The notes beneath the pieces are model-generated. The model made no database searches and was not told where the DNA came from. It worked only from the letters and a program-made list of their open reading frames with translations. A DNA stretch of 21,607 bases from a virus. The position numbers were made by a program, and so were the translations under genes. Shown here in pieces: positions 10,757 to 21,607 of this stretch; the stretch's first letter is position 1, and the number at the start of each line of letters is the position of its first letter. Location of the stretch: positions 1 through 21,607 of the IMG/VR virus record IMGVR_UViG_3300047557_003626. The stretch is one strand, 5' to 3'.

Positions 10757-10804
10757 AAATTCGAAATCCTCTGTGGGGGGCTCCGAAAAAAATTCTAAGA
10801 ACCA

Positions 10805-10951
10805 ATGAATAGAAAAACAGAAATACTCCTAGAGAATATTGCAAAGGTGATAAAAGGAATTATCATGGCTATCTTGGCAATACCTCTGTTATTCCTTTTG
10901 TTAATGGTAATTCTGATAGTATATGGAGTAATCGGTTCCTTTTTTAAATAA
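10805..10951 (+). CDS. Single-pass membrane mini-protein (48 aa)
   Basis: An ATG-to-TAA frame of 48 codons. Residues 20-45 (IIMAILAIPLLFLLLMVILI onward) form one strong transmembrane helix after a short charged N-terminus. It is the last plus-strand gene before the inverted cassette. The ribosome-binding site is weak (TAAGAA). A membrane role in lysis or superinfection control is possible but unsupported. Confidence 0.55.
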   Translation: MNRKTEILLENIAKVIKGIIMAILAIPLLFLLLMVILIVYGVIGSFFK

Positions 10952-11096
10952 GGAAAAATTCAAAAGGTGCGCGGGAGCCCCAGAAAATAAAAAATAGGAA
11001 AAAAGAGTTTGACCTGGTGGAGCTTTTTTAGCTAAGCGCTCACCCCATGGCTTCCCAATCCATCCTCTACAGCTGCCCCAGCCAGCCCCATAGGCC

Positions 11097-11119
11097 AAAA
11101 AAAGGCAGCCGAAGCTGCC
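11097..11119 (-). terminator. Rho-independent terminator, minus strand, UUCG tetraloop
   Basis: Read on the minus strand: GGCAGC, loop TTCG, GCTGCC, then seven Ts. The C(UUCG)G tetraloop makes a very stable hairpin. It lies 20 bases after the last minus-strand gene and is well placed to end the whole inverted block. On the plus strand there is no T-run on the exit side, so it is not a good terminator for the 10805 gene. Confidence 0.85.
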
Positions 11120-11138
11120 TCAAAGCTCACCCACCGCT

Positions 11139-11234
11139 TTAACCTATTCGCCAGACCACCAAGTCCAGCATCAGCACCACCACAGCCGCAGCCATAACCA
11201 CAGCCATTCCGATTTGTTCTGCTTTCGTATACAT
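11139..11234 (-). CDS. Membrane mini-protein (31 aa)
   Basis: A 31-codon frame on the minus strand encoding one transmembrane helix (IGMAVVMAAAVVVLMLDLVV). Its ATG shares a base with the stop of the preceding gene (TAATG), and AAGGAG lies about 9 bases upstream. The strong ribosome-binding site and exact overlap support a real gene despite its size. Function unknown. Confidence 0.6.
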   Translation of the reverse strand: MYTKAEQIGMAVVMAAAVVVLMLDLVVWRIG

Positions 11235-11467
11235 TATTTGGTCTCCTTCACATATTGCAGGGAATCCTTGACATAAGCCAGACCCTTGGGGCTGGTAGCA
11301 ATCACTGAGCTAAGCACTGAGGACAGGTAGCCTAGGCTGTATGCTACGGCATCTCGGTGGTCATCGCCGCGGTTCTCTTGGCGGTCACGGATGGCGGTGA
11401 CCAATTGGCGGACAATTTCATCAGCAGCAGCACGCTTCTGGAGAGTTTTTTCGTAGGTGGTTCGCAT
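11234..11467 (-). CDS. Unknown alpha-helical protein (77 aa)
   Basis: A 77-aa charged helical protein (RTTYEKTLQKRAAADEIVRQ, ending in YVKDSLQYVKETK). The start at 11467 is preferred: it follows AAAGGAAAC, and the longer upstream frame would run through the promoter at 11499-11526. I do not recognise it. It is the first gene of its own unit, followed by the 31-aa membrane protein. Confidence 0.75.
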   Translation of the reverse strand: MRTTYEKTLQKRAAADEIVRQLVTAIRDRQENRGDDHRDAVAYSLGYLSSVLSSVIATSPKGLAYVKDSLQYVKETK

Positions 11468-11498
11468 TTCGTTTCCTTTCTGATTTACAATGGAATGG

Positions 11499-11526
11499 AT
11501 TCTACCAGAACCACGGTGGGTGGCAA
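11499..11526 (-). promoter_or_regulatory. Minus-strand promoter of the shared family
   Basis: On the minus strand: TTGCCA (11526-11521), 16 bp, TAGAAT (11504-11499), preceded by TTCTGG as extended -10, then 7 nt and ATTG at the expected start of transcription. The ATTGTAAATC start region is identical to that of the 12852 promoter. Confidence 0.78.
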
Positions 11527-11557
11527 GCATCAGGTAAAAGTTGACCAGCCTGGTGGG

Positions 11558-11695
11558 TTATGCCATGACGGCAGCGGAAGCAGCTTTAAAAAATGCAACA
11601 AAAGCGCTTACAAAAGCTGAACCAATTGCTAGCGTCTCCTTGGGAAAGCTAGCCCCCAAGCACGCCAGACACAACCACCAAGCTAGTCTTATCAT
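11558..11695 (-). CDS. Hydrophobic small protein (45 aa)
   Basis: A 45-codon minus-strand frame beginning MIRLAWWLCLACLGASF, a signal-peptide or membrane-anchor-like segment, followed by a second hydrophobic alanine-rich stretch. It begins by ATGA overlap with the preceding gene. A cysteine follows LCLA, but this does not fit the lipobox well. Function unknown. Confidence 0.55.
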   Translation of the reverse strand: MIRLAWWLCLACLGASFPKETLAIGSAFVSAFVAFFKAASAAVMA

Positions 11696-12156
11696 TTCAA
11701 CAATTGTCCTGTTTTCTGATATTTTTTCTGGAAGAAGCTCTGTACCTTCTCCACGGTGTCACGGAAAGCCTCAGCCTTGCCACCATACCAACCTTCGAAA
11801 CCATTCCGGTCTGGTCGGTGGACAATGGTAAAGTCCGGATACTTGACCTTTTTAACCTTTACAACCTTTGGCTTCGGTTGGCTGGGTGCCAGAGCAACCG
11901 TAGCGGCTTGCCTTTTCTTCGGCTTCGGTGTAGAATTAGCAGCTTTTTCAATTGCAACCTCTGGCCGATGCGTTACCGGTCCAGCCCATGGAAAGAAGCC
12001 AACCGAGGATTTGCTATCAACCGCTTCGGCTATCTCATAAGCACACCGACCCCATTGGTCGGTTTCGGCATTGTAGAATCGGAAGGGTTTGCCTTGCATT
12101 CCACGGTCCACAATGTAGATTCCGCTTTTCTCTGGTTTGCCTGTACTGAAATTCAT
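11692..12156 (-). CDS. Unknown protein, two parts joined by a basic proline-rich linker (154 aa)
   Basis: The N-terminal 60 residues (SGIYIVDRGMQGKPFRFYNA, then GFFPWAGPVTHRPE) resemble the short domains in phage proteins that mirror a request-form layout such as DUF551, though I would not assign it. A linker of roughly 45 residues is rich in K, P and A. The C-terminal part reads DFTIVHRPDRNGFEGWYGGK. ATG at 12156 is chosen over a TTG 15 bases upstream because GAAAGG is correctly spaced. It follows the GP88-like gene by 19 nt. Confidence 0.75.
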   Translation of the reverse strand: MNFSTGKPEKSGIYIVDRGMQGKPFRFYNAETDQWGRCAYEIAEAVDSKSSVGFFPWAGPVTHRPEVAIEKAANSTPKPKKRQAATVALAPSQPKPKVVKVKKVKYPDFTIVHRPDRNGFEGWYGGKAEAFRDTVEKVQSFFQKKYQKTGQLLK

Positions 12157-12175
12157 AATGTTACCTTTCAAAAAA

Positions 12176-12820
12176 TTAATTTACAACCGACAACCGAATA
12201 ACCTTGGCCATTTTCTTGCCGTGAGCCACATAACCGATAACCGGCACGGACTTATCATAGCAAGCACGGCAGTCCAAGCACTTGCCATCCTGCTCAGCAG
12301 CACGGCACACCGTAACACCAGCAGGCACCTCAGCACCAGCAGGAATGATGGTAGAACCATGCACGCCAGGGGTGAAAGTGCCATCCACAGCATCACTAGA
12401 GGGACGGACCATCACATTCGGAAGGGCTTGCATGGCAGCAATGATGGACTGGAATTTGGAAAACTTATGCATACGGGTCGGCAGCCAGTGCTTGGTGGTC
12501 GGAGTGGCCATCATGATAGCCAGCATTTTCTCTGCAAGCTCAAGGCTGTACATGTCGCCAGAATCGAACCAACGGAAATGCTTATCTTTTTTCAGAGCAG
12601 CAACCATGTCACCAACCCAACCATCACGCTTCCAGTCCGCTTTGTTTTCCGCACGGACTTGCTTGACGGCACCAAAGTGGTACATGCCGGTGGTGGCATA
12701 GCAACCAGAGCATGCCGGTACCAGCTTACCATCCGCACCAACCGAACCGGGGCAGGTTTCGATTGCTTGCAAGGACCAGGACTTGGTACCAAGCTTAGAG
12801 GTTTTGGAGAGCTTCAGCAT
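12176..12820 (-). CDS. GP88-like cysteine-containing phage protein
   Basis: A 214-aa protein matching, from memory, the GP88 family first named in mycobacteriophages. The family wording is visible: GTKSWSLQAIETCPGS with C23, PACSGCYATTGMYHF with C37 and C40, RWFDSGDMYSLELAEKML, and HWLPTRMHKFSKFQ. A C-terminal cluster CRAAEQDGKCLDCRACYD adds four cysteines. The two clusters would suit metal or Fe-S binding, but no activity is known to me. It is led by its own promoter (12852-12879) with AAAGGACG before the ATG. Confidence 0.85.
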   Translation of the reverse strand: MLKLSKTSKLGTKSWSLQAIETCPGSVGADGKLVPACSGCYATTGMYHFGAVKQVRAENKADWKRDGWVGDMVAALKKDKHFRWFDSGDMYSLELAEKMLAIMMATPTTKHWLPTRMHKFSKFQSIIAAMQALPNVMVRPSSDAVDGTFTPGVHGSTIIPAGAEVPAGVTVCRAAEQDGKCLDCRACYDKSVPVIGYVAHGKKMAKVIRLSVVN

Positions 12821-12851
12821 GTTGCGTCCTTTGCGATTTACAATGGAATGG

Positions 12852-12879
12852 ATTGTACCAGAATTCCGAGGATTGGCAA
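12852..12879 (-). promoter_or_regulatory. Minus-strand promoter of the GP88-like gene
   Basis: On the minus strand: TTGCCA (12879-12874), 16 bp, TACAAT (12857-12852), with TTCTGG before the -10 box and ATTG 7 nt after it. A class B dyad lies 4 bp upstream of the -35 box. Confidence 0.76.
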
Positions 12880-12883
12880 GTGT

Positions 12884-12895
12884 ATACTTTAGTAT
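12884..12895. promoter_or_regulatory. Class B dyad (putative operator)
   Basis: ATACTTTAGTAT is a dyad with 5-bp arms around TT. It ends 4 bp upstream of the minus-strand -35 box at 12879, the same placement as the AGTACTTTNTACT sites at 14842 and 20605. It also lies just beyond the stop of the 12902 gene. Confidence 0.5.
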
Positions 12896-12901
12896 TCCAG
12901 T

Positions 12902-13111
12902 TTACCGGTAGAATACATTGCGGAAGTACCTGGTCCGGGCCTCGGCCTTGGCCAGCAATTCCGACCAGTCGCCGGTTTCCTCCACGTATCGGATATCCTT
13001 ATTGACCCACTTGGTGAACCCCATGGATGTGGTGCTGGTCATAGCCATGCCAGCATTAGCCACTTTCATCCTATCGGCAAAGTCCTTGGAAACCGGCTTC
13101 CTGTATCCCAT
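12902..13111 (-). CDS. Unknown protein (69 aa)
   Basis: A 69-aa protein (GYRKPVSKDFADRMKVANAG; C-terminal AEARTRYFRNVFYR) that I do not recognise. The minus-strand ribosome-binding site GAGGAGG is encoded within the acidic tail of the preceding gene, whose stop lies 2 bases upstream. Last gene of the 13512-12902 unit. Confidence 0.7.
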   Translation of the reverse strand: MGYRKPVSKDFADRMKVANAGMAMTSTTSMGFTKWVNKDIRYVEETGDWSELLAKAEARTRYFRNVFYR

Positions 13112-13113
13112 GG

Positions 13114-13332
13114 TTATTCCTCCTCAGCCTCTTCCTCATCCTCAAAATGCTCCAGCAATTGGTCCCAGTCCACTTCGGAAAGGTGGACCATGTCCTTTAG
13201 TGGACCATCCGGAATGGCATCATACTGCTCCTCCAGGGTGTACCGTGCAGCCTCTACATCCTCACGGGATTCCGGATTGAACCAGACATTAACCAGCCAG
13301 GTTTCACGGTTAGTCCATCCATTGTAGCTCAT
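13114..13332 (-). CDS. NGWTNRETW-family protein (DUF7249-like)
   Basis: A 72-aa protein beginning MSYNGWTNRETWLVNVWF, a signature I associate with a widespread family in phages and mobile elements (DUF7249 from memory). Family members are short and of unknown function. The C-terminus is acidic (FEDEEEAEEE). AAGGAGAG precedes the ATG at good spacing. Confidence 0.8.
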   Translation of the reverse strand: MSYNGWTNRETWLVNVWFNPESREDVEAARYTLEEQYDAIPDGPLKDMVHLSEVDWDQLLEHFEDEEEAEEE

Positions 13333-13341
13333 ATGCTCTCC

Positions 13342-13512
13342 TTATCGAATTGTCAAATTGGTTATAACGGCAACACCAAGATTCCGCGAAGCGTAGCGGG
13401 CTTCTTTCATTACCACAGCTTTGGCAAGAGCCAAGGTTTTGTAGTATCGGCCACGCTCAGCCCATAGGACCGCCTTTGGGGTTTGGATTAATGTGACCGT
13501 TTGCTTCAACAT
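13342..13512 (-). CDS. Unknown basic protein (56 aa), probably from a leaderless mRNA
   Basis: A 56-codon minus-strand frame (KQTVTLIQTPKAVLWAERGR, then YKTLALAKAVVMKEARY). No Shine-Dalgarno sequence precedes the ATG. The ATG falls 7 nt after the -10 box of the promoter at 13520-13547, at the place where other members of this promoter family have ATTG as the expected first transcribed bases. Translation from a 5'-terminal AUG is therefore likely. It is followed after 9 nt by the NGWTNRETW gene. Reality of the gene is supported by operon position and composition, not by homology. Confidence 0.55.
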   Translation of the reverse strand: MLKQTVTLIQTPKAVLWAERGRYYKTLALAKAVVMKEARYASRNLGVAVITNLTIR

Positions 13513-13519
13513 GGAATGA

Positions 13520-13547
13520 ATTATGACAGAACCGGAGGGAATGGCAA
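13520..13547 (-). promoter_or_regulatory. Minus-strand promoter, first of the inverted cassette
   Basis: On the minus strand: TTGCCA (13547-13542), 16 bp, CATAAT (13525-13520), then 7 nt and ATG in place of the usual ATTG. It should transcribe the genes from 13512 to 12902. Confidence 0.72.
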
Positions 13548-13594
13548 GCGTCCATGGAATAGTCGACCAATCCGCTGGGTCATTCCAAGGGGGC

Positions 13595-13622
13595 TTGACG
13601 GACGCTCTGGTTTCGGTATAAT
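13595..13622 (+). promoter_or_regulatory. Plus-strand promoter without an obvious gene
   Basis: TTGACG (13595-13600), 16 bp, TATAAT (13617-13622), then TGAATC and ATTC, in register with the family. The transcript would begin near 13629 and cross 220 nt before the first confident gene at 13853, so it may make a small RNA or a long leader. Confidence 0.6.
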
Positions 13623-13719
13623 TGAATCATTCGAAAGCAAGACTGGGGTGGACGCTGGGGCTGCACGCCATTCCTTGCTGTAATACTTTAGTACTACTCC
13701 GGCGGAATGCGTTTGGACC

Positions 13720-13749
13720 ATTATATCATGCGGGAGACCGCCATGGCAA
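13720..13749 (-). promoter_or_regulatory. Possible minus-strand promoter, 18-bp spacer
   Basis: On the minus strand: TTGCCA (13749-13744) and TATAAT (13725-13720), 18 bp apart. Both boxes are good, but the spacing is 2 bp longer than in the other family members and the ATTG start element is absent, so this is tentative. Confidence 0.35.
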
Positions 13750-13796
13750 CCAGCCCCAGAATAGTCGACCAATTGGCTGTAATACTTTTTGAATAC

Positions 13797-13824
13797 TTGC
13801 CAAACCCGCCCATTGTGTCATAAT
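13797..13824 (+). promoter_or_regulatory. Promoter of the first rightward accessory genes
   Basis: TTGCCA (13797-13802), 16 bp, CATAAT (13819-13824), then AACATC and ATTG at the expected start. AATACTTTTTGAA at 13781-13793 is a weaker class B element in the same position relative to the -35 box. The 13853 gene follows with GAAAGG as ribosome-binding site. Confidence 0.72.
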
Positions 13825-14016: not shown

Positions 14017-14196
14017 ATGAGTTTTAAAATTGAATTTGATATTGAGAATCAATTGTATAATGTCACGGAATCTGGCGTTATCGTGGAGTCCTTTGAAACC
14101 CTCTGGGATGCTATGGATTATCGCGCCTCTATGATATGGGAGCGTGATATGGCATTTCAGGATTATGGTACGGAGTGGGATATTGAGGTGCTTTGA
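14017..14196 (+). CDS. Unknown small protein (59 aa)
   Basis: A 59-aa acidic protein (SFKIEFDIENQLYNVTESGV). CGGAGGA at 14004-14010 fixes the ATG at 14017 rather than the TTG at 14011. It follows the preceding stop by 2 nt. Its end carries TTGAGGTG twice, 10 nt apart. Confidence 0.7.
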   Translation: MSFKIEFDIENQLYNVTESGVIVESFETLWDAMDYRASMIWERDMAFQDYGTEWDIEVL

Positions 14197-14278
14197 GGTG
14201 ATTTTGGATCGCGGTGAGAGACTAAGTGCCAATCTTTCCTAAAACTTAACATAATTCCGCGAAACTCCACGCGCACCA

Positions 14279-14356
14279 CACTTTTTCACACTTTCTGACA
14301 CTTTTTTGCACTTTCAGGTAGCATTTCAGGTAAACTTTTTTCTTAACTTTGAGGTA
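14279..14356 (+). repeat. Phased short repeats in a leader: CACTTT every 10 bp, then AGGTA every 12 nt
   Basis: The 167-nt gap between two small genes (14197-14363) holds CACTTT at 14279, 14289, 14299 and 14309 (exact 10-bp period). AGGTA then occurs at 14316, 14328 and 14352 (12 and 24 nt apart). The last AGGTA is the ribosome-binding site of the 14364 gene. A weak promoter-like pair (GTGCCA 14226, CATAAT 14250) lies upstream. The T-tracts are in phase with the DNA helix, which could bend the DNA. Confidence 0.75.
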
Positions 14357-14363
14357 AAAAACC

Positions 14364-14588
14364 ATGGCAAATCGTAAACTTCCCTTTGATTGTACTATTC
14401 TGGATACTGATAAGGTACTAGTTACCAATCCTTTCTCTGGTGAGTCATGTTATCTGGAACCTGATGCGGTTGCGGTATATGATACAATTCGTGGTGCGGA
14501 AATGTTTGGTCAATATGATACGGTTCGGAAAGGACTGGATTGGTTCTCTAAGCATTTCCCTGAGGAATATATGGTTCTCTTAGACTGA
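14364..14588 (+). CDS. Conserved phage protein of unknown function (74 aa)
   Basis: A 74-aa protein with FDCTILDTDKVLVTNPFSGE and CYLEPDAVAVYDTI, wording I recall from many small phage proteins with no known function. GAGGTAA at 14351-14357 is the ribosome-binding site. The 3' end contains the start of the second AGGTA array. Confidence 0.75.
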   Translation: MANRKLPFDCTILDTDKVLVTNPFSGESCYLEPDAVAVYDTIRGAEMFGQYDTVRKGLDWFSKHFPEEYMVLLD

Positions 14589-14625
14589 GGTAAGAGTAAG
14601 GTAGCGTTAAGGTAAGACTGAGGTA
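14588..14625 (+). repeat. AGGTA x4 at exact 11-nt period, ending in a ribosome-binding site
   Basis: AGGTA occurs at 14588, 14599, 14610 and 14621. The first copy overlaps the stop of the preceding gene, and the last lies 9 nt before the ATG at 14630. The flanking bases differ between units, apart from GACTGAGGTAA, which is repeated exactly at 14583 and 14616. So only the Shine-Dalgarno-like core is kept in all units. Confidence 0.85.
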
Positions 14626-14629
14626 AAAG

Positions 14630-14842
14630 ATGGACTGGAATCTAGAAGGTAAGCGTATCAACGGACTTTATATGGGTCTTTTCCCATACTCTGGTCTGGT
14701 AACAGAATCCCGTGTCAAATACGGTGGTTCTGTTCAACATACTGTAAAGGTCGATGAGCCTTTTAAGGTGTACGGTGCGGTTAGAGATACAGTTTTGGTA
14801 GGTGTAGGTGAGGTAAATCGTATACTATATGATGGTGAGTGA
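14630..14842 (+). CDS. Conserved phage protein (70 aa)
   Basis: A 70-aa beta-rich protein with LYMGLFPYSGLVTESRVKYG and VYGAVRDTVLVGV. I recall similar short proteins in several phages, function unknown. Its TGA stop is part of the class B dyad that precedes the next promoter. Confidence 0.76.
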   Translation: MDWNLEGKRINGLYMGLFPYSGLVTESRVKYGGSVQHTVKVDEPFKVYGAVRDTVLVGVGEVNRILYDGE

Positions 14843-14854
14843 GTACTTTCTACT
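14842..14854. promoter_or_regulatory. Class B dyad AGTACTTTCTACT (putative operator)
   Basis: AGTA and TACT arms are separated by 5 bp. It ends 3 bp before the -35 box at 14858. A 24-bp stretch here (14839-14862) is repeated at 20602-20625 with one difference, including the -35 box. Confidence 0.62.
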
Positions 14855-14857
14855 GAC

Positions 14858-14885
14858 TTGACAAACCTTCTGGTTCTGGTATAAT
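14858..14885 (+). promoter_or_regulatory. Strong sigma70-like promoter
   Basis: TTGACA (14858-14863), 16 bp, TATAAT (14880-14885): both boxes perfect, with TTCTGG before the -10 box and TCCATC-ATTG after it. It drives the 14921 and 15232 genes. Confidence 0.85.
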
Positions 14886-14920
14886 TCCATCATTGTTCAA
14901 CGGTTCTAACGGAGATTTTT

Positions 14921-21513: not shown

Positions 21514-21529
21514 AGGTAAAAGAGAGGTA
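21514..21529 (+). repeat. AGGTA x2 at 11-nt period before the last gene
   Basis: AGGTA occurs at 21514 and 21525, and the ATG follows 9 nt after the start of the second copy, the same distance as at 14621/14630. It is the third leader with this arrangement. Confidence 0.7.
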
Positions 21530-21533
21530 AAAA

Positions 21534-21607
21534 ATGGATGAAAAAGAAGTTATCACTGTTAATTTAGAACAGGTATTGAAAGCCAAGGACTTTCTTTCAG
21601 TTACAAG
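21534..21607 (+). CDS. 5' fragment of an unknown gene
   Basis: The frame starts MDEKEVITVNLEQVLKAKDF and runs off the window after 24 codons. GAGGTAA upstream is the ribosome-binding site. It follows the AAA+ gene by 22 nt and is probably in its operon; a functional partner of the ATPase could be encoded here. Too little is visible to assign. Confidence 0.65.
   Translation, partial: MDEKEVITVNLEQVLKAKDFLSVT

Follow-up and report, generated by a model that had tools for sequence, protein, structure and literature searches.

Tandem AGGTA repeats of an uncultured T4-like phage as probable lineage-specific leader and boundary elements of an island of small-gene exchange

Short tandem AGGTA repeats in the DNA of an uncultured T4-like phage are, with a probability of about 0.85, lineage-specific direct-repeat leader or boundary elements of an island in which small genes are exchanged. 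This reading of the sequences draws on conservation bound to genome position, swapping of the downstream genes, conservation of the repeat cores over their spacers in relatives, orientation on the sense strand only, and the cassette context of the repeats. The upstream repeats of an array are probably binding sites for a regulator or else relics of tandem duplication.

The window (the whole 21,607-base IMG/VR virus record analysed here) carries T4-like marks, a class I ribonucleotide reductase small subunit and a phage exonuclease family (phrog_107), and its peptidase is ~33–35% identical to cyanophage myovirus counterparts. A blastn search of the array region against 50,697 phage records gave no match, and no cultured phage is similar to that region at the DNA level. 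Relatives were gathered by protein similarity or by pattern; the window and most of these relatives are fragments.

AGGTA arrays in the window

The AGGTA arrays are real and not a product of chance. As the original prediction had it, to the exact coordinate, four copies (14588, 14599, 14610 and 14621) precede the ATG at 14630, three copies (14316, 14328 and 14352, at spacings of 12 and 24) precede the ATG at 14364, and two copies (21514 and 21525) precede the ATG at 21534; the final copy of each array lies where a Shine-Dalgarno (SD) sequence is expected (Table 1). The stop codon of ORF 14364–14588 ends on the first A of the copy at 14588, so that the two share this base. The + strand of the window has four occurrences of AGGTA-N6-AGGTA, and none of 100 dinucleotide shuffles has any. 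A look-elsewhere test that admitted any 5-mer in four copies, with a spacing of 9–20 and a spacer identity <0.6, found two arrays in the window, both within 14279–14625: CACTT/ACTTT with period 10 (14279) and AGGTA with period 11 (14588). The same test gave 0/60 in shuffles; in 476 kb of related phage DNA it picked out one further array locus, and the array of G001 falls narrowly outside its spacer-identity cut-off. The sole similar case in the 476 kb of background phage DNA is a CTGTG array with 11-nt spacing and dissimilar spacers (L095:286). The pair at 21514 consists of two copies only, and its likeness to the others does not stand out clearly from chance (P 0.07–0.26).

Table 1. Features of the exchange island, its flanks and the distal AGGTA pair (window coordinates)
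Feature	Coordinates	Strand	Remark
Left anchor gene, 59 aa	14017..14196	+	In 7 viral contigs; AGGTA array in the next leader in 6
Exchanged interval, gene-swap island	14189..14903	+	No blastn match to L314 between 14188 and 14904
CACACTTTTT direct-repeat array, period 10	14277..14315	+	Leads into AGGTA copies
AGGTA x3 (14316, 14328, 14352)	14316..14356	+	Last copy in SD position
Exchanged ORF, 74 aa	14364..14588	+	Homologue at L132:4769 without AGGTA leader
AGGTA x4, exact 11-nt spacing	14588..14625	+	Last copy in SD position, 9 nt before ATG
Exchanged ORF, 70 aa	14630..14842	+	22 viral-contig homologues, 0 with AGGTA array upstream
Sigma-70 promoter-like site, TTGACA-16-TATAAT	14858..14885	+	Perfect 12/12; closes island
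Right anchor gene Z, 99 aa	14921..15220	+	27 viral-contig homologues
AGGTA x2, 11-nt spacing, after ATPase-like ORF	21514..21529	+	Second copy in SD position
ORF start after the 21514 pair	21534..21607	+	Continues past contig end

The repeat unit is ~11–12 nt long and reads roughly T-N-AGGTA-(A)GCATT, with a core, AGGT(A), that is able to pair with the anti-SD. AGGTA is in excess in this island alone (16–18 per 3 kb, against a mean of ~3.2 in G007 and G006), on the + (sense) strand only. Enrichment across the genome was rejected, the overall count being near the Markov expectation; among the 178 large ORFs of G007, 5 have AGGTA as their SD. The leader of 14364 is composite, because the 10-nt CACACTTTTT array (14277–14315), which has phased T-tracts, runs into the AGGTA copies at 14316, 14328 and 14352. 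A near-perfect 15-nt repeat is found at 14582 and again at 14615.

On the + strand, the stretch 14325–14857 contained no promoter-like site, and the 14588 array sits in an intercistronic gap. Comparison of the small island ORFs with Pfam and PHROG yielded no informative match, and no regulator gene was recognised in the island. Just left of the island lies the strand switch of a block of GC ~0.50 with minus-strand genes (window 10800–13800), in a phage of GC ~0.35–0.41; this switch is common to L132 and G007. A promoter-bearing stretch (window 13511–13568) matches three places in L314, as a dispersed promoter cassette.

Conservation by position among relatives

Comparison of the relatives indicates that the arrays are tied to a position in the genome and not to a gene. 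Arrays follow the homologue of the left anchor gene in L132, L134 and L133/L136; that of L134, for example, reads AGGTATCATTG AGGTAACGCTG AGGTAGCATTG AGGTAAACT. Between the anchors stand genes X and Y in L132, L134 and L136, ORFs 14364 and 14630 in the window, and another ORF in L314. L314 is the closest relative: its flanks match the window at 79% and 88% blastn identity and 14189–14903 is without a match, and on these alignments the interval is swapped wholesale between relatives. The homologue of gene 14364 is located elsewhere in L132/L136, with no AGGTA in front of it. We read the upstream regions of homologues of two proteins, 14630 (22 homologues) and gene Z (27), and none of those outside the small clade carries an AGGTA array; an array bound to the gene was rejected on this ground.

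The original prediction called for a search of relatives for arrays upstream of start codons. An array is present at the same genome place in ~5 phages, in 3 to 4 copies, but it lies 120–150 nt away from the start codons and does not adjoin them; the closest relative has no AGGTA here.

The closest relative has another motif at the same boundaries. G028 (the contig of L131/L314) has TCGGTGGYGTTTT at exactly three sites in 71 kb (62567, 62772 and 62994), all of them boundaries within the same island: one follows the left gene, one marks where the inserted ORF begins, and one comes after the stop of that ORF. Because G028 carries TCGGTGGYGTTTT solely at island boundaries, without AGGTA, a repeated lineage-specific boundary motif seems, from these two lineages, to be a property of the island, with AGGTA as the version of the present lineage. 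The last two copies of TCGGTGGYGTTTT flank one inserted ORF as direct repeats.

Within the clade, the cores are conserved over the spacers. Among L132, L134 and L136 the AGGTA cores vary in 1/20 columns and the spacers in 11/26 (Fisher P=0.006), a count that covers three sequence types only and concerns the motif that drew attention; the pairwise differences are 2/60 in cores and 23/77 in spacers. These relatives thus bear out the earlier remark that the cores are kept while the spacers vary, in a manner suggestive of function. The third core in L136 is mutated to CGGTA. Beyond the cores, the window arrays resemble the array of the relatives only modestly (best pairs P ~0.03): AGGTAGCATT..AGGTAAACT of the 14316 array matches the L132/L134 array (P ~0.03).

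The hairpin-promoter cassette of relatives

In the relatives the AGGTA array is followed by a 19-bp hairpin and then by a sigma-70 promoter, TTGACA-16-TATGAT, and any start codon lies 120–150 nt downstream of the array. Pairing of the hairpin stem is kept in 6/6 aligned sequences, with conserved G-U pairs, and three positions have changed on both sides, all in one lineage (L185). Array, hairpin and promoter together precede gene X in L132/L134/L136; in L183 the gene directly after them is Z. When hairpin and promoter were scanned for in combination, the cassette was recovered in this clade only, and the 19-bp hairpin was not found in the window. A known structured RNA was rejected, with no match to Rfam 15 at the gathering score in the window, L132, L183 or L136. 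A perfect 11-bp inverted repeat, TATGCATTATA/TATAATGCATA, lies directly before the array at L132:3279–3316, with no difference between L132, L134 and L136. The −10 box is covered by a second small palindrome, both arms of which are changed in L134.

Mobile regulatory PeSL cassettes of T4-type phages were reportedly described by Arbiol et al. in 2010 and by Comeau et al. in 2014. The leader or boundary element formed by the arrays resembles these T4 cassettes. PeSL (promoter early stem-loop) cassettes are reported to shuffle genes between T4-like phages (cited in PMC4503421) and, compared by layout, share with the present element a short repeated intergenic form, an early sigma-70 promoter, accompanied in the relatives by a stem-loop, and a place in a region of small-gene shuffling. 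The early sigma-70-type promoter is present both in the relatives, after the hairpin, and in the window (14858). A stem-loop beside the promoter is present in the relatives (19 bp, 3 compensatory pairs), and this hairpin was not found in the window. One element stands before different genes in the shuffling region (X and Z, with the island replaced). Unlike PeSL, the present element adds tandem 11–12-nt AGGTA repeats, and the window contains only repeats and a separate promoter, with no hairpin cassette.

Possible roles of the upstream repeats

By its placement, the last repeat of each window array appears to serve as the SD sequence. We propose tentatively, at somewhat less than even odds, that the arrays are boundary elements whose upstream copies are kept for a sequence-specific regulator acting at the RNA level. 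In the window, the last unit of each array stands in the SD position for the gene just inserted, and in relatives the same array stands ahead of the hairpin-plus-early-promoter cassette. The upstream copies would be retained because the regulator reads them: a phage or host protein would bind the tandem AGGUA motifs and, with the last AGGUA overlapping the SD, binding would set the translation of the island genes, in a CsrA-like logic without CsrA. The repeats may also supply short homology at gene boundaries, helping cassettes to recombine.

We lean towards the RNA level because no promoter is near the gap that contains the 14588 array, because all arrays are sense-oriented, and because each of the three window arrays closes in the SD position of an ATG. 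Against this, the array of the relatives precedes a promoter and is distant from the start codon, and the spacings of 11–12 and 23–24, one and two helical turns, would suit DNA binding equally. The mutated third core of L136 and the lack of AGGTA in the closest relative also count against the proposal. The predicted RNA exposure of the cores is mixed (0.26–0.37 for the 14316 array, lower than the mean of 0.57 for its leader). No binding protein was identified for AGGUA; RegA is encoded by G007 and G009, and no link from RegA to AGGUA was found.

The layout is like that of CsrA/RsmA leaders, in which several short motifs are present and one overlaps the SD (PMC4066749). Unlike those leaders, the arrays have an AGGUA core without the GGA that CsrA needs. 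A CsrA/RsmA leader was rejected, the A(N)GGA motif being absent with no GGA in the units, and CsrA was found in none of six phage records. It is distinctly unlikely, although conceivable, that a new phage or host translational regulator reads tandem AGGUA at 11–12-nt spacing and spreads to the SD, with other lineages using another boundary motif; because of such spreading, any gene landing in the exchange island would be controlled at once.

If the upstream copies do work, swapped-in genes would come under a control element already in place, ribosome site included, and gene shuffling would be linked directly to expression. Comparison with a close relative that has another boundary motif (flanks at 79–88% DNA identity) can test such a function. 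If the upstream copies are idle, the arrays would be a clear case of tandem duplication next to a ribosome-binding site in a recombination hot spot.

The idle alternative is possible, at odds well below even. It holds that the arrays are a by-product of slippage duplication of a boundary containing the ribosome-binding site, TGAGGTAA, in which only the last copy works and the upstream copies are decaying. Consistent with this, gene Z of L132 carries a fresh 5-nt slippage of the AGGTA core, AAGGTAAGGTAAGGTT (AAGGTAAGGTAAGG), the 15-nt repeat noted above is near-perfect at both of its places, some arrays have 3 copies and others 4, and the closest relative is missing the arrays. Perfect 11-nt AGGTA tandem repeats are also common in unrelated viral and bacterial DNA, and a neighbouring second array has a different motif (CACTT). 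Neutral decay, however, should strike cores and spacers equally, which the 1/20 and 11/26 variable columns do not fit. The window array taken alone points the same way, since a neutral-decay simulation matched to its similarity produced a fixed run of five columns in 1.3% of cases (P ~0.013).

A DNA operator is unlikely. Under that explanation, head-to-tail repeats one helical turn (11–12 bp) apart, and sometimes two, would be bound by a transcription factor and so control the island promoters in the OmpR/PhoB-type format. The observed spacings (11, 11, 11; 12, 24; 12, 11, 11; and 12, 23) agree with such a format, in which direct repeats are spaced by 11 bp (or 22 bp). They parallel ArcA sites, whose direct repeats at 11-bp spacing are accompanied by between one and three further copies, 11 or 22 bp away (PMC3798270), and ArcA/PhoB operators likewise have half-sites of five to seven bases set head to tail. 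The relatives carry the array upstream of a strong sigma-70 promoter, with TACCT/AGGTA arms flanking its −10, but those arms are lost in L134. The half-site differs from that of ArcA/PhoB operators, no regulator was found in the phage, and one window array, that at 14588, lies between two cistrons with no promoter close by. A search of five phage records for the Trans_reg_C domain (PF00486) found none, which means that the factor would have to come from the host.

Plasmid and phage iterons likewise consist of tandem direct repeats of ~11 bp. Unlike iterons, the arrays have a very short core, none of the neighbouring ORFs was recognised as an initiator gene, the site shows no clear GC-skew switch, and DnaA-box-like repeats are confined to one relative subgroup. 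A DnaA-box replication origin was rejected, as TTATCCACA pairs occur only in G007 and that subgroup, without a clear skew switch, and are absent from the window and from the G001 and G006 islands. A 49-bp insertion beside the array (L136:3274–3322, also in L133, L135 and L137) contains three DnaA-box-like TGTGGATAA copies at 11-nt spacing, of which two are perfect TTATCCACA on the minus strand (G007:10968 and 10979); it is absent from L132, L134 and the window.

The original prediction also offered tandem ribosome landing. In this reading, of landing or standby sites, each AGGUA would bind 30S subunits and feed the last SD. We regard this as quite improbable, and as a general function it is unlikely because in the relatives a stable hairpin and a promoter come between the array and the start codon, 120–150 nt away, and because homologues of the downstream genes in other phages have no array in front. 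The AGGU core, which some copies extend to GAGGU or UAAGG, is able to pair with the anti-SD, and in the window the copies do lead to a start codon, with the last one in the SD position in 3/3 arrays. Several upstream copies pair weakly, however (TCAGGTA −3.8 and TAAGGTA −3.9 kcal/mol), and anti-SD pairing leaves the constant fifth base, A, unexplained; TGAGGTA reaches −6.9 kcal/mol, against −8.4 to −9.3 for the usual AAGGAG of the phage. The window layout recurs in the unrelated contigs L156 and L167, where three AGGTA copies at 11-nt spacing end 9–10 nt before the ATG of an ORF (L156:2345, minus strand, with 9 nt to the ATG; L167:8296).

A search of the accessible literature on AGGTA direct repeats in phages found nothing. 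The four-copy AGGTA pattern occurs in 74 stretches of viral contigs, mostly perfect 11-nt satellites in unrelated DNA, and matches to the three-copy pattern in viral contigs and bacterial genomes are mostly perfect repeats, uninformative on the host. Several Bacteroidales genomes have TRAGGTA-N4 arrays on several contigs, and in Streptococcus (L203, L212 and L260) a conserved uneven TAAGGTAAATGTGAGGTAAAGCTAAGGTA array lies upstream of a promoter-like site.
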